Shown here in pieces: positions 10,591 to 20,670 of a stretch of 36,936 bases of DNA. Made by a program: the position numbers and the translations under genes. Where the stretch lies: positions 1-36,936 of the forward strand of contig JADGQX010000013.1 of NCBI GenBank assembly GCA_017881445.1. The letters are read 5' to 3'. Each line of letters starts with the position of its first letter. The stretch's first letter is position 1. The notes under the pieces are model-generated. The model did not search any database and was not told the origin of the DNA. It saw nothing but the letters and a program-made list of their open reading frames with translations. Origin of the DNA: Gemmatimonadota bacterium. GTDB lineage: Bacteria; Gemmatimonadota; Gemmatimonadetes; Longimicrobiales; RSA9.

Positions 10591-10699
10591 TGTGGATAAC
10601 GGGGTGGTTGTTGTCCACACCTGGATGTGCAGAACCACCCGCATGTGCACAAGTCGCGGTAGAACAACAACTTAGAAGATTTCCACGAATTGTGGACAA
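10591..10699. promoter_or_regulatory. DnaA-box cluster between the Nif3 gene and bactofilin gene
   Basis: One perfect box TTATCCACA (as TGTGGATAA, 10591-10599) and two single-mismatch boxes TTGTCCACA (10611-10619 forward; 10691-10699 reverse) lie within 110 bp. Weaker TGTGCACAA (10644-10652) and TTTCCACGA (10680-10688) also occur. An AT-richer patch GAACAACAACTTAGAAGATT at 10662-10681 lies between boxes, unusual for this GC-rich DNA. It may be an origin sub-region, a DnaA-titrating site or a regulatory site. Confidence 0.75.
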
Positions 10700-10760: not shown

Positions 10761-11228
10761 TCAATCCGCCGTCAGGACGGGCGGGGCCGGCGTGCCCTGC
10801 GTCTCGGGGCGCGGCATGTCCGGAACCCCCGCGGGGCTCGCCGGGACACCCGGGGCCGGGCGCCGCTGCACCTCGCCCGTGCGGATCCCGCCATTGACCC
10901 GCCCGCCCTCGTCGAGCTTGATGCGCCGGGCGTGGATCTCGCCGTCGATGACGCAGGTCGCCTGCAGCTCGAGGCGGCTCTCGGCGACGACGGTGCCCTT
11001 GACCTTGCCGCCGATGATGGCGTCCTGGGTGTCGATGTCGCCAATGACGACGCCGTCCTTGCCGACGACCACGGCCTTGCCGGCGCGCACGGTTCCTTCC
11101 AGCTCCCCCTCGATGCGGAGCGTGCCCTCCGTATCGCAGTTGCCCACCACGCGCATTCCCGCGCCGATGATGGAGATCACGCCATCGTGGGCGGGCGCGC
11201 CTCCGAGCGGGGTCTTGTCCTTGGCCAT
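10761..11228 (-). CDS. Bactofilin (polymer-forming cytoskeletal protein)
   Basis: A 155-residue bactofilin. The central beta-helical core (about residues 16-115) shows the repeating short strands and turns of the family (GTLRIEGELEGTVRAGKAVVVGKDGVVIGDIDTQDAIIGGKVKGTVV...). It is flanked by a short disordered N-terminus and a Pro-rich tail. Bactofilins polymerise without nucleotide and scaffold cell-wall enzymes or chromosome-segregation proteins. ATG at 11228 is chosen because AGGA lies 9-12 nt before it. A GTG at 11252 overlapping the previous stop (GTGA) is the alternative. It ends the parA-parB-coiled-coil-bactofilin cluster, in line with known bactofilin-ParABS links. Confidence 0.92.
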   Translation of the reverse strand: MAKDKTPLGGAPAHDGVISIIGAGMRVVGNCDTEGTLRIEGELEGTVRAGKAVVVGKDGVVIGDIDTQDAIIGGKVKGTVVAESRLELQATCVIDGEIHARRIKLDEGGRVNGGIRTGEVQRRPAPGVPASPAGVPDMPRPETQGTPAPPVLTAD

Positions 11229-11248
11229 GTTGCCATCCTGGTGTGCGT

Positions 11249-11683
11249 TCACTTCTTGAGTCCGAGCAGGCGGGCCGCTTCGGAGACGGAGGAGCCGGCT
11301 GCGGCGCGCGACCCGGCGGAATCCTTCCGGCCGAGCGGCGGGAGTATGGGCTCCTTGCTCCTGGGCGCGGCCGCGTCGGCACCCAGGAGCTGACGAACGT
11401 GCTCGTACTGCGCTTCGACCTGCTCCAGCTCCCGCGCCAGACGCGCGACCTTCTCGCGTTCGCTTTCGAGGCGTTGCACTTCGGCCTGGAGGCTGTTCGC
11501 CCGGGCCGCCTGCGCGGCCACGTACCACCAGGTCGACACCACGAGAACGAAGACGAGGAGCAAGGCCACCACCCCGGCGAAGAGGAGCTTCAGGCGGCCG
11601 TAGGAGACCGTGAAGGTACGGGTCTCCAGGTCCGCGTGCGGGACCACGATGAACGTGAGGAAGCGCTTGTCGCCGTGGGGCAT
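11249..11683 (-). CDS. Small membrane-anchored coiled-coil protein (M23-peptidase-like N-terminus without peptidase domain)
   Basis: A 144-residue protein that starts MPHGDKRFLTFIVVPHADLETRTFTVSYGRLK, followed by one hydrophobic helix (about residues 33-55) and a coiled coil (about 60-95, LQAEVQRLESEREKVARLARELEQVEAQYEHVRQLL). It ends in a short polar tail. This start-helix-coiled-coil layout resembles the N-terminal half of M23-family cell-wall endopeptidases often found next to bactofilins, but no HxxxD or HxH catalytic motif follows before the stop. It lies 2 bp after parB and just before the bactofilin gene. It may be a stand-alone adaptor linking bactofilin to the membrane, or a remnant. 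Function is not established. Confidence 0.75.
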   Translation of the reverse strand: MPHGDKRFLTFIVVPHADLETRTFTVSYGRLKLLFAGVVALLLVFVLVVSTWWYVAAQAARANSLQAEVQRLESEREKVARLARELEQVEAQYEHVRQLLGADAAAPRSKEPILPPLGRKDSAGSRAAAGSSVSEAARLLGLKK

Positions 11684-12590: not shown

Positions 12591-13391
12591 TCACCCCCGC
12601 GCGGCCGCGGCGGTGGTGATGCCGGCGGGCTTCCGGGCGATCAGCTCTTTCGCCAGGGCCAGATAGCTCTGCGCGCCCGCGGAGAGAAGGTCGTACACCA
12701 CGATCGGCTTGCCGAAGCTGGGCGCCTCGGCCAGGCGCACGTTGCGCGGGATCGCGGTGCGGTAGACCCGGCTGCCGAAGTACTCCTGCGCCTCCTCCGC
12801 CACCTGGCGCGAGAGGTTGAGCCGCTGGTCGTACATGGTCAGCAGCACGCCGTCGATCTGCAGCTTCGGATTGATGTTCCGCTGCACCAGCCGCACGGTG
12901 TTCAGCAGCTGCGACAGCCCTTCCAGCGCGTAGAACTCGCACTGGATCGGGATCAGCACCGCGTCCGCCGCCGCCAGCGTGTTCAGCGTCAGCAGTCCCA
13001 GCGAAGGCGGGCAGTCCACGAGCACGAACTCGTACTCGTGCCGGATCGCTTCCAGCGCCTTGCGCAGCAGCAGCTCGCGGCCCGGCCGGCTCACCAGCTC
13101 CACCTCCGCCCCCACCAGGTCCCGGCTCGAGGGCACCACGTCCAGGTACGGGAAGTGGACATGCCGCACCGTCGCGCTCGAGACCGCCGCGCCTTCCACC
13201 AGCACCTCGTACGCCGTCGCCTGCGCCGCCGACCGGTCCACCCCCAGCCCGCTGGTGGCATTGCCCTGCGGGTCCATGTCGATCATCAGCGTCCTGCGCT
13301 CGGCCACGGCCAGGCAGGCGCCGAGGTTGATGGCGGTGGTGGTCTTGCCCACCCCGCCCTTCTGGTTGGCGATGGCGATCACGCGGGACAT
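12591..13391 (-). CDS. parA: ParA/Soj chromosome-partitioning ATPase
   Basis: A 266-residue ParA with the deviant Walker A motif KGGVGKTT at residues 11-18, the Walker A' segment LMIDMDPQGNATSGLG, and Walker B VLVDCPPSLG. It is full length. It lacks an N-terminal helix-turn-helix, so it belongs to the chromosomal Soj type rather than plasmid ParA that represses its own promoter. It is expected to form ATP-dependent, DNA-bound gradients that move ParB-parS. A plausible promoter lies 41-69 bp upstream. First gene of the par-bactofilin cluster. Confidence 0.95.
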   Translation of the reverse strand: MSRVIAIANQKGGVGKTTTAINLGACLAVAERRTLMIDMDPQGNATSGLGVDRSAAQATAYEVLVEGAAVSSATVRHVHFPYLDVVPSSRDLVGAEVELVSRPGRELLLRKALEAIRHEYEFVLVDCPPSLGLLTLNTLAAADAVLIPIQCEFYALEGLSQLLNTVRLVQRNINPKLQIDGVLLTMYDQRLNLSRQVAEEAQEYFGSRVYRTAIPRNVRLAEAPSFGKPIVVYDLLSAGAQSYLALAKELIARKPAGITTAAAARG

Positions 13392-14132: not shown

Positions 14133-14159
14133 CCGGCCGCGGCCGGCCGCCGCGGGCCC

Positions 14160-14173
14160 GTTTCACGTGAAAC
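14160..14173. promoter_or_regulatory. parS site 1 (GTTTCACGTGAAAC)
   Basis: A perfect 14-bp palindrome, GTTTCACGTGAAAC, with flanking bases C and A. It equals the classic Spo0J/ParB centromere core found near many bacterial origins. It lies about 770 bp from the parA start and 3.7 kb from dnaA. Confidence 0.93.
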
Positions 14174-14256
14174 ACCGGCCCGCATCCCGCCGACGCGAAG
14201 GCGCCGCGGCTGCGCTCCGCCTCCCCGCGTGCGGACCGTCCGGGCGCCGCCCGGAC

Positions 14257-14270
14257 GTTCCACGTGGAAC
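14257..14270. promoter_or_regulatory. parS site 2 (GTTCCACGTGGAAC)
   Basis: A second perfect palindrome, GTTCCACGTGGAAC, 97 bp from the first. It differs symmetrically at one position in each half-site (T to C, A to G), matching the variant type used by some other phyla such as myxobacteria. The symmetrical change keeps the palindrome, which argues for a selected ParB site. Confidence 0.88.
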
Positions 14271-14611
14271 ACTTCCCGCAACTTGGTGTGGTTATTGCAC
14301 TTAACCAGCGCGGAGACCCCGGACGCACCGCCCCGGGGACCGCTTGCCGGGCCCGCAGGTCCGCCGGGCGAGGATCGCCTTGCGCGACACGCCCGCCGGC
14401 CTGCCGGAGGAGCGCGCCGGCCTCCCGCTGGCCGGAACCGGCCCGGCGGCGCGGTCTCGCCCTGACCGCCGCACTTTCCTGCGGCACTGGCGGCGGCGCC
14501 CGGCCTGAGCCAGAATCCGAGGCCGGACGCGCCGCTCCGACGCATGCGCGCCGACCGACCGGGGCCCAGCGCCAGCTTCGAGACTCCGAGCGCGAGCCCA
14601 TGTGATCTCCC

Positions 14612-17826: not shown

Positions 17827-17856
17827 TTGACTTATCCACATCGCAACCCCTAGCTT
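17827..17856 (+). promoter_or_regulatory. dnaA: dnaA promoter candidate overlapping a perfect DnaA box
   Basis: Rightward TTGACT (17827-17832) and a weak TAGCTT (17851-17856) with an 18-bp spacer. A perfect DnaA box TTATCCACA (17832-17840) lies in the spacer, where bound DnaA would block RNA polymerase. This fits known dnaA autorepression. The -10 match is poor, so the promoter call is tentative; the DnaA box is clear. Confidence 0.6.
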
Positions 17857-17900: not shown

Positions 17901-19283
17901 ATGGAGTTCACCGCCACCGAAGCCTGGTCCCTGATCCTGGAGCGCGTTCGCGCGGTGCTCCCGGATCACACCTATCGCACGTGGCTGGAGAAGACCGAGC
18001 CGCTGTCGCTGTCCGAGGACCGGCTGGAAGTGAGTGCCGGCAGCGAGTTCGCCGCGGAATGGATCGAGGACAAGTACGGCAAGCTGCTGCGCGACCTCGC
18101 GGAGCGGGTCCTCGGTCGGAGCATCTCCATCTCGGTGCAACACCATACGCGCGGCGAGGGGTCGGCGGTTTCGCCGCGTCCGGCGGAGCGACCGGCGGGA
18201 CCGGCCGTGCCGGCGGCGGCGGTGCCGCCCAGGCCGATGGGCCCGGCGGTCGCACCCGCACCGGGCGGCCCGCTGAACGATCGCTACACGTTCGAGCGTT
18301 TCGTGGTGGGCACGGACAACCAGTTGGCGGCGGCGGCCTGCAAGGCGGTTGCGGAAGCGCCGGCGCGCATGTACAACCCGCTCTTCATCTATGGCGGCGT
18401 GGGGCTGGGCAAGACGCACCTGATGCACGCGGTGGGTCATGCGATCCTGGCGCGGGACCCGACCAAGCGGGTGGCGTACGTGACCAGCGAGCGCTTCACG
18501 AACGAGATGGTGGTGTCGATCCAGGAGGGGCGCATGCCGGAGTTCCGGCGTCGCTACCGGGAGATCGACCTGCTGCTGATCGACGACATCCATTTCCTGG
18601 GGGAGAAGGAACGGACCCAGGAAGAGTTCTTCCACACGTTCAACGCGCTGCACGACGCCCAGCGCCAGATCGTGCTGACGAGCGACCGTCCGCCCAAGGA
18701 GATCAACGGGCTGGAAGCGCGGCTGGTCTCCCGCTTCGAGTGGGGGCTGGTGACCGACATCAAGGCACCGGACCTGGAGACGCGGGAGGCGATCCTCCGC
18801 AAGAAGGCGGAAGACGACCGGCTCACTCTAGCCGACGACGTGCTGCAGTTCGTGGCGCGCAACTGCCGCTCGAACGTGCGCGAGCTCGAAGGCGCCATCA
18901 TCAAGCTCCTGGCCTACTCCTCGCTGACGCGGCGCGAGATCACGGTGGAGCTGGCGCGGGAGGCCCTCGGCGGCCTGGCGGTGCCGGTAGCCGCTGAGTT
19001 GTCACCGGAGACGATCCGTACCCGCGTCGCCAGCTTGTACGGCGTCACGGTGGACGGGCTCTGCTCCAAGAGGCGGACCAAGGAGCTGACGGTTCCGCGC
19101 CAGGTGGCCATGTACCTGATCCGGATGCTGCTCGATCTGCCGCTGGTGGAGATCGGGAAGCTCTTTGGCGGCCGGGACCACTCCACCGTGATTCACTCGG
19201 TGCAGAAGGTGGAGGACGACCTGGCGACCGACGAGCAGCTTCGGGGGCGAGTCGAAGCTCTCCGACAGGAGCTGCTGGGCTGA
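17901..19283 (+). CDS. dnaA: Chromosomal replication initiator protein DnaA
   Basis: A 460-residue DnaA. Domain I covers about residues 1-80 (WSLILERVRAVLPDHTYRTW). A Pro/Ala-rich domain II linker spans about 85-124. The AAA+ domain III starts at about 125, with Walker A GGVGLGKT (165-172), Walker B LLLIDDIHFL (about 227-236) and the sensor region. Domain IV ends with the DnaA-box-binding signature GRDHSTVIHSVQKVEDDL. It opens the origin and loads replicative helicase. ATG at 17901 starts the conserved domain I; a TTG at 17856 would add 15 unconserved residues. Divergent from rpmH, and followed by an origin-like spacer and dnaN. Confidence 0.97.
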   Translation: MEFTATEAWSLILERVRAVLPDHTYRTWLEKTEPLSLSEDRLEVSAGSEFAAEWIEDKYGKLLRDLAERVLGRSISISVQHHTRGEGSAVSPRPAERPAGPAVPAAAVPPRPMGPAVAPAPGGPLNDRYTFERFVVGTDNQLAAAACKAVAEAPARMYNPLFIYGGVGLGKTHLMHAVGHAILARDPTKRVAYVTSERFTNEMVVSIQEGRMPEFRRRYREIDLLLIDDIHFLGEKERTQEEFFHTFNALHDAQRQIVLTSDRPPKEINGLEARLVSRFEWGLVTDIKAPDLETREAILRKKAEDDRLTLADDVLQFVARNCRSNVRELEGAIIKLLAYSSLTRREITVELAREALGGLAVPVAAELSPETIRTRVASLYGVTVDGLCSKRRTKELTVPRQVAMYLIRMLLDLPLVEIGKLFGGRDHSTVIHSVQKVEDDLATDEQLRGRVEALRQELLG

Positions 19284-19554
19284 GCAGAGGACGGTGGAAA
19301 GCGTGTGGAGCGCGGCTCCACTTGCCAACAGGATCCGTCCAGATGTGGGTAACCGGAGCAAACCCGTCGCGGCCTCCACGGCGCTTCCACAACGGGACCG
19401 ATGAGGAAACTGGTTGGAGGGCAGGGAGCTGAAGCGTGTCGGCCGGCGTTGTCCACGGCTCCACACCCTCTACTATTACTACTAGAGATTTCCATCATAC
19501 AGGGCTAGTTATCCCTGGATGTGAACTCGTGGGGACAACCGGGCGAGAGGCACC
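19284..19554 (+). other. Candidate oriC in the dnaA-dnaN spacer, with DnaA boxes and a DnaA-trio
   Basis: The spacer carries several DnaA-box-like sites: TTACCCACA (reverse, 19344-19352), TTGTCCACG (19449-19457), GGCTCCACA (19457-19465), plus hexamers TCCACA at 19304-19309 (reverse) and 19386-19391. Directly after the 19449 and 19457 boxes comes a short C-rich gap, then CTA-CTA-TTA-CTA-CTA (19470-19484). This matches the DnaA-trio layout of basal unwinding systems (box, GC-rich spacer, trinucleotides). AT-richer DNA follows to about 19520. This is the strongest oriC candidate in the window. Confidence 0.8.
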
Positions 19555-20670
19555 ATGAAATTCACGATCACGCGGGACAACCTGCAGCAGGGTCTTGCCT
19601 CGGTGGCCGCGAGCATTCCGACGCGAACCACGTTGCCGGTGCTCTCGAACATCCTGATCGAGGCGGATGGCGCGGGTGTCCGGATGAGCGGCACCGACCT
19701 GGACATTGCCGTGAGCCTGCAGGTGGCCGCGGATGTGGAGGAAGAGGGGGCGCTCACGGTGCCGGCCAAGAAGCTGCAGGAGCTGGCGCGGGAGCTGCCG
19801 GAGAATCCCGTGCGGATCTCGACCAAGGCCGACCGCTTCGAACTGGCCTGCGGCCGGGCGAGTTTCAAGCTGAACGGCATGCCGCGCGACGAATTTCCCA
19901 CGTTCCCCGCGGTGGACTTCCACGACGCCTGGAAGCTGTCGGGACAGGTCCTGAGCACACTCATCCACCAGACCTCGTTCGCGGTGTCCACGGAGGAGAG
20001 CCGCCCGATCCTGAATGGCGTGCTCTGGCAGTTGGGTGACCGCGAGATGCGCATGGTGGCGACCAACGGCCATCGCCTGGCGGTCATGAAGCAGGCGGTG
20101 AATTTCCCGGGGGCGGGCCGGGTGGACCTGATCATCCCGCCCAAGGCCCTGGCCCAGGTCGAGCGCCTGTTCGCCGGGGGCGAGGAGATCGAGGTCGGGC
20201 GCAGCGAGAACCACCTCGGCTTCCGCCAGGGCGGCACCCGCATTTTCACACGCCTCATCGAGGGGCCCTATCCCAACTACGAGCAGGTCATCCCCAAGGA
20301 CAACGATAAGCACGCGGATGCCGACAAGGCGGGCCTGATCCAGGCGTTGCGCCGCATGTCGGTCGTGGCCAGCGAGCAGACACACCGGGTACGGCTCTCC
20401 TTCAACCCTGGCCTGCTGCGCTTCTCCGTGGAGTCGCCGGACCTGGGCGAAGCCCGCGAGGAGCTGGAGATCGACTACCAGGGCGAGCCCCTCGACATCG
20501 GCTTCAATGCCGCCTACCTGCTCGAGGTGCTGCGCTACATTCCCACGGCCGAGGTGCACCTTACCTTCAAGGCACCGGAGCGCGCTGCCACGCTCGAGCC
20601 GGTGCGGCCGGAGGGCGAGAGCGGGCCGGACTACCTCTGCCTGGTCATGCCGCTCAGACTGCTCGAATAG
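19555..20670 (+). CDS. dnaN: DNA polymerase III beta subunit (sliding clamp)
   Basis: A 371-residue sliding clamp with the three-domain layout. It starts MKFTITRDNLQQGLASVAASIPTRTTLPVLSNILIEADGAGVRMSGTDLDI and ends with the family C-terminus PDYLCLVMPLRLLE, which contributes to the partner-binding cleft. It encircles DNA as a dimer and tethers polymerase III. It follows dnaA after the 271-bp origin-like spacer and is closed by a strong terminator, so it does not appear to be in an operon with recF. Confidence 0.97.
   Translation: MKFTITRDNLQQGLASVAASIPTRTTLPVLSNILIEADGAGVRMSGTDLDIAVSLQVAADVEEEGALTVPAKKLQELARELPENPVRISTKADRFELACGRASFKLNGMPRDEFPTFPAVDFHDAWKLSGQVLSTLIHQTSFAVSTEESRPILNGVLWQLGDREMRMVATNGHRLAVMKQAVNFPGAGRVDLIIPPKALAQVERLFAGGEEIEVGRSENHLGFRQGGTRIFTRLIEGPYPNYEQVIPKDNDKHADADKAGLIQALRRMSVVASEQTHRVRLSFNPGLLRFSVESPDLGEAREELEIDYQGEPLDIGFNAAYLLEVLRYIPTAEVHLTFKAPERAATLEPVRPEGESGPDYLCLVMPLRLLE

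Follow-up and report, generated by a model that had tools for sequence, protein, structure and literature searches.

Where, and by what signal, does the very GC-rich chromosome of this Gemmatimonadota bacterium open for replication? The DNA analysed here (the window, 36,936 bp) corresponds to contig C46 in a draft genome of 4.75 Mb and 420 contigs, 99.6% complete, and carries dnaA and dnaN on either side of a 271-bp spacer (dnaA stop at 19283, dnaN start at 19555). Its nearest named relatives are Gemmatimonadota, and one of them, L003, shares its spacer with G114, a genome from the window's own order, which places the window in this phylum. The basal unwinding system (BUS), in which DnaA boxes lead across a short gap into DnaA-trios, has been defined and placed in most bacteria by published analysis (PMC8287927), and the structure of trio-bound DnaA is available (PMC10721633). 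Among the sources within reach of our literature search, which left out most subscription journals, we found no described Gemmatimonadota origin. We hold it highly probable that the spacer is the origin, that positions 19449–19484 are a BUS opened by DnaA (Table 1), and that over most of the sampled phylum an opposed DnaA box lies about 50 bp away across the melting zone.

Table 1. Coordinates of genes and origin elements in the window
Feature	Position	Strand	Remarks
dnaA	17856..19283	+	start codon uncertain; Pfam Bac_DnaA 3.2e-72, Bac_DnaA_C, DnaA_N; trio-binding residues kept
dnaA–dnaN spacer, highly probable oriC	19284..19554	.	position and DnaA-box cluster; GC-skew minimum adjoining in closed relative
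Upstream DnaA box TTACCCACA	19344..19352	-	1 mismatch
DnaA box 1 of BUS, TTGTCCACG	19449..19457	+	1 mismatch to TTNTCCACA; kept in relatives
DnaA box 2 of BUS, GGCTCCACA	19457..19465	+	2 mismatches; TCCACA core kept in relatives
Gap CCCT, proximal box to trios	19466..19469	+	4 bp in most origins
Five DnaA-trios CTA CTA TTA CTA CTA, CTACTATTACTACTA	19470..19484	+	sole match to five YTA triplets in genome; conserved
AT-richer stretch, predicted to unwind	19485..19519	.	46% GC; relatives average 35%
Weak inverted DnaA box GAGTTCACA	19520..19528	-	50 bp from first trio; box position conserved in relatives
Inverted DnaA box TTGTCCCCA	19530..19538	-	1 mismatch; 60 bp from first trio
dnaN	19555..20670	+	Pfam DNA_pol3_beta domains

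A basal unwinding system between dnaA and dnaN

An earlier sequence-only reading had proposed that boxes in this spacer lead through a C-rich gap into the CTA-CTA-TTA-CTA-CTA run, in the order known from DnaA-trio origins. Both the elements and their order are indeed present at 19449–19484, well beyond chance, and they form a canonical BUS. The published search rule allows a box with at most two mismatches, a spacer of at most 16 bp and at least three consecutive 3'-NAN-5' trios (PMC8287927); here TTGTCCACG ends 12 bp and GGCTCCACA 4 bp ahead of the first of five trios, 3'-GAT-5' stands closest to the box, and the TCCAC cores of the two boxes are spaced 8 bp. The strand predicted to be bound at the trios is the minus strand, 3'-GAT GAT AAT GAT GAT-5'. 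A point against the assignment is that the proximal box has two mismatches. The range of 19304–19520 originally proposed does enclose the BUS, but the signal consists of the core at 19449–19484 plus the DNA beyond it, and the inverted boxes at 19520–19538 had been missed.

Five consecutive YTA triplets occur once in the 4.75-Mb genome, both strands counted, and that match is the one in this spacer (0.0013 expected from base composition). DnaA boxes are likewise concentrated here, with nine at up to two mismatches and three at up to one, against 0.96 and 0.10 expected from the remainder of the window. The AT-richer DNA that had been noted after the trios proves to be the extreme of the window: the 50-bp segments starting at 19463–19471 reach 62% AT where the window averages 29%, and no 40-mer in the entire 36.9 kb is less stable than the one beginning at 19471, with unstable AT-rich DNA lying both at and after the trios.

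GC skew, which the earlier reading had suggested as a check, was followed in G032, a closed relative in one contig that belongs to the same order as the window, and there the switch coincides with the spacer. Across twenty 20-kb samples the sign of the skew changes near dnaA and once more on the far side of the circular chromosome, the samples at 3.8 and 4.0 Mb, which are weakly negative, being the exceptions, and the cumulative minimum over 420 contiguous kb falls at 3,126,440, about 0.6 kb from the dnaA stop at about 3,125,806. The window has its own cumulative minimum at 17980, 1.3 kb ahead of the spacer.

Conservation was assessed in 152 origins from 116 genera, each anchored at its first trio. 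With anchors set by our own scoring rule, which favours CTA near TCCAC and does not include the downstream box, the trios open with CTA in 141 of the 152 origins, and the first two are CTA followed by CTA, TTA or CTG (or are TTACTA) in 129 (102 of 116 genera). The gap between box and trios measures 4 bp in 129/152 origins, and the TCCAC cores of both boxes are strongly conserved in relatives at a constant 8-bp step. The trinucleotides, their phase and their spacing, whose comparison among related genomes had also been put forward, are thus kept. Neither of the two outcomes that the earlier reading had named as refuting it, a distant skew switch or a loss of trio phase and box spacing in close relatives, was encountered. 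The main exception is genus g12 with a few neighbours, where CTATGATGACGAT stands in place of the trios and the CTA phase is lost; this CTATGATGACGAT-like sequence follows straight after the boxes in L152–L154, L156–L160, L166 and L002. Comparable ATGATGACG runs stand behind a TCCAC box in the Chloroflexota L007 and L018, and in L251–L253, from another class of the phylum, two good boxes are followed by the trio variant CTAATAATAATAG or CTGATAATATTAG.

The initiator itself retains the residues for trio binding. Aligned with Bacillus DnaA (numbering and roles as in PMC10721633), the window's DnaA keeps N187, I193, R202, K222, E228 and R264 and has Val in place of I190; in B. subtilis these residues hold trio bases, contact the backbone or join protomers (PMC10721633, PMC8287927). 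In g12 and its neighbours with altered trios the pocket residues are unchanged except for position 194 in g12. The covariation of this residue (Q to Y/G/S/A) with the altered trios is not interpretable, because it is seen in one clade only.

Could the trios be an accident of an AT-rich patch, with the origin opening elsewhere, for example at a cluster of DnaA boxes at 10591–10699? In its favour, the cluster combines perfect boxes with DNA of low stability, and the spacer contains no mismatch-free box. However, the trios are unique in the genome and conserved over the phylum, the skew minimum of G032 lies beside the dnaA–dnaN spacer and not 10 kb upstream, and the window holds no other run of three YTA triplets. 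Opening elsewhere than at the trios is largely refuted, and we regard it as extremely improbable.

We therefore read the spacer as most probably the place where the chromosome opens for the start of replication, and the signal within it as one of a known kind. It resembles the BUS of B. subtilis oriC (DnaA-boxes 6 and 7, gap, DnaA-trios) in its succession of box, box, C-rich gap, 3'-GAT-5' trios and AT-rich stretch, in its location between dnaA and dnaN, and in the trio-binding residues of its DnaA; this extends a probably ancient origin-opening signal to Gemmatimonadota. By homology with B. subtilis, on which our account of DnaA binding, melting and strand choice rests, we envision that the two tandem boxes would be bound by DnaA as duplex DNA, that a DnaA filament would then grow onto the minus-strand trios with three bases captured per protomer, and that this growth would melt the AT-rich stretch 19470–19519. 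That DnaA opens the origin at the trios is very likely on this analogy, from which we also infer the precise position of the first melted bases.

An inverted DnaA box across the predicted melting zone

Across the AT-rich stretch from the trios, relatives carry a TGTGGA-like DnaA box in inverted orientation. When boxes were scored over all distances from the first trio, in both orientations and in 5-bp bins, families f1, f2, f3 and f7–f10 had an inverted box at 48–52 bp in 81% of 90 origins, against at most 7% in every other bin of either orientation. Taking one origin per genus in these seven families, which include that of the window, the inverted box occurs at 48–52 bp in 48 of 61 genera where dinucleotide shuffles predict 1.5, although binomial p-values overstate independence here because the genera share ancestry; direct boxes at this distance occur in none of the 61. 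The window departs somewhat from its relatives, as its best distal box, TTGTCCCCA, lies at 60 bp and not at their 50 bp, where it has only the weak GAGTTCACA. In the sister families f4–f6 the inverted box is absent at 48–52 bp, and direct boxes are found at 43–47 bp in 13 of 49 genera (1.25 expected) and at 53–57 bp in 11 of 49 (1.45 expected).

Two related patterns were considered and set aside. A second peak at 57–61 bp, as helical-turn quantisation would give, amounts to 3 observed against 2.1 expected with g12 excluded and is not claimed. Nor does the melting zone form a simple dyad, or inverted repeat, beyond the level of shuffles (39 of 73), and therefore no palindrome is claimed.

Since the distal box stands directly upstream of dnaN, it could be an operator at which bound DnaA controls dnaN transcription, and PMC4447404 describes DnaA as a transcription factor at some B. 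subtilis boxes. The box, however, keeps a constant distance to the trios and lies anywhere from 3 to 94 bp from the dnaN start, which couples it to the former rather than to dnaN and disfavours dnaN regulation; it also keeps the same orientation with respect to the trios. We consider the operator reading unlikely. Instead, because the opposed box is held about 50 bp off across the melting zone, DnaA bound to it is likely to cap the bubble at its far edge or to orient that edge.

Such a phase-locked inverted box, found across most of the sampled phylum, is apparently undescribed: our literature search, from which most subscription journals were out of reach, returned nothing relevant on inverted trios or on boxes flanking the unwinding element. 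Beyond the phylum, strong inverted boxes were seen only in L004, L012 and L031 among the Bacillota origins examined, and so no general rule is proposed. The origins of E. coli and Vibrio cholerae also contain oppositely oriented DnaA boxes, but their opposed clusters are part of the box region flanking the unwinding element (PMC10316083), whereas the opposed box of Gemmatimonadota lies beyond the unwinding element and at a fixed distance. From the BUS of B. subtilis the present origin differs in its very GC-rich chromosome, in the phase-locked inverted box past the AT-rich stretch of most relatives, and in a genome with no DnaD-type protein. The distal box outweighs the extension of the BUS in importance, and may hint at the way in which the second replication fork is started.

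Inverted trios and the second helicase

The placement of the second helicase is described as unresolved in the literature (PMC10721633, PMC10201434). In B. subtilis, the DnaD recognition element (DRE) has, like the distal box, been proposed to steer the second helicase onto the complementary strand; it differs in that it lies across from the trios as single-stranded TnnT and depends on DnaD. The genome analysed here encodes DciA, and a search of its 99.6% complete sequence for a DnaD-type protein (DnaB_2 domain, PF07261) gave no match, with controls matching in B. subtilis and L. lactis. With DciA but no DnaB_2-domain protein, the second-helicase scheme of B. subtilis (PMC10201434) is therefore unavailable here.

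Tentatively, and with the odds against it, the distal inverted box, or inverted trios in the sister families, might seed another DnaA filament on the strand opposite the first, in effect a mirror-image BUS, which would place the second helicase and replace DnaD and its recognition element. The equipment of the genome and the unsettled literature leave room for such an arrangement, and the 48–52 bp distance is constant across highly diverged DNA. In the DNA that separates the AT-rich stretch from the distal box, many relatives also carry GTAGTAG or AGTAGAAG, trios of the other strand, giving a convergent layout exemplified by L175 (CTCTACTACGACTACTA...CAGTAGTAGAG...TGTGGA). Over 140 origins a reverse-strand trio matrix scores above shuffles (Wilcoxon 7e-10) and a direct-strand matrix shows no excess; the inverted excess is significant in f3, f4 and f5, strongest in f4, then in f3 and f5. 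However, the window has no inverted trios beside its distal box (shuffle p 0.42), f1 shows no excess, and most single origins fall short of individual significance. Moreover, the strong inverted trios occur mostly in f4 and f5, which lack the inverted box, so that the two halves of the mirror image rarely coincide. Inverted trios in relatives are thus a tendency, not a rule. These scores come from anchored scoring of the spacers; an exact long pattern for the convergent layout, found in 15 of 298 genomes of the phylum with several apparent chance matches, was too strict and was abandoned.

It is also conceivable, if doubtful, that Gemmatimonadota origins consist of a single melting zone between two DnaA platforms that face each other, each serving one strand. 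The strong BUS would then occupy the dnaA side and a counterpart based on a box or on trios the dnaN side, and DnaA by itself would determine strand as well as polarity for each helicase, with no DnaD-like protein involved. Whichever role the distal box has, capping or orienting the bubble edge being the one we favour, it is an element at a fixed place in a DciA bacterium, which makes the question of the second helicase testable through one 9-bp site.

Further DnaA boxes and parS-like sites in the window

The second cluster of DnaA boxes, at 10591–10699, contains three perfect boxes 7.2 kb ahead of dnaA and sits between a bactofilin gene (10761–11528, minus strand) and a DUF34/NIF3 gene, also on the minus strand; its 40-mer at 10660 ranks third in instability over the whole window. 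A cluster in the bactofilin–NIF3 interval is present in 17 of the 19 genomes examined, the window included, and absent in L311 and L312, with two to six boxes at up to one mismatch per 280 bp against 0.04–0.28 expected. It may be a site of DnaA titration or reactivation, a distal part of the origin, or a DnaA-controlled promoter. Directly 5' of the dnaA start, a perfect box TTATCCACA at 17832–17840 is possibly a site of autoregulation. Finally, two parS-like sites at 14159–14174 and 14256–14271, with one and three mismatches to TGTTTCACGTGAAACA (0.02 expected), lie 5 kb from the origin and close to genes for ParA (12591–13391, minus strand) and ParB (11686 onwards, minus strand).
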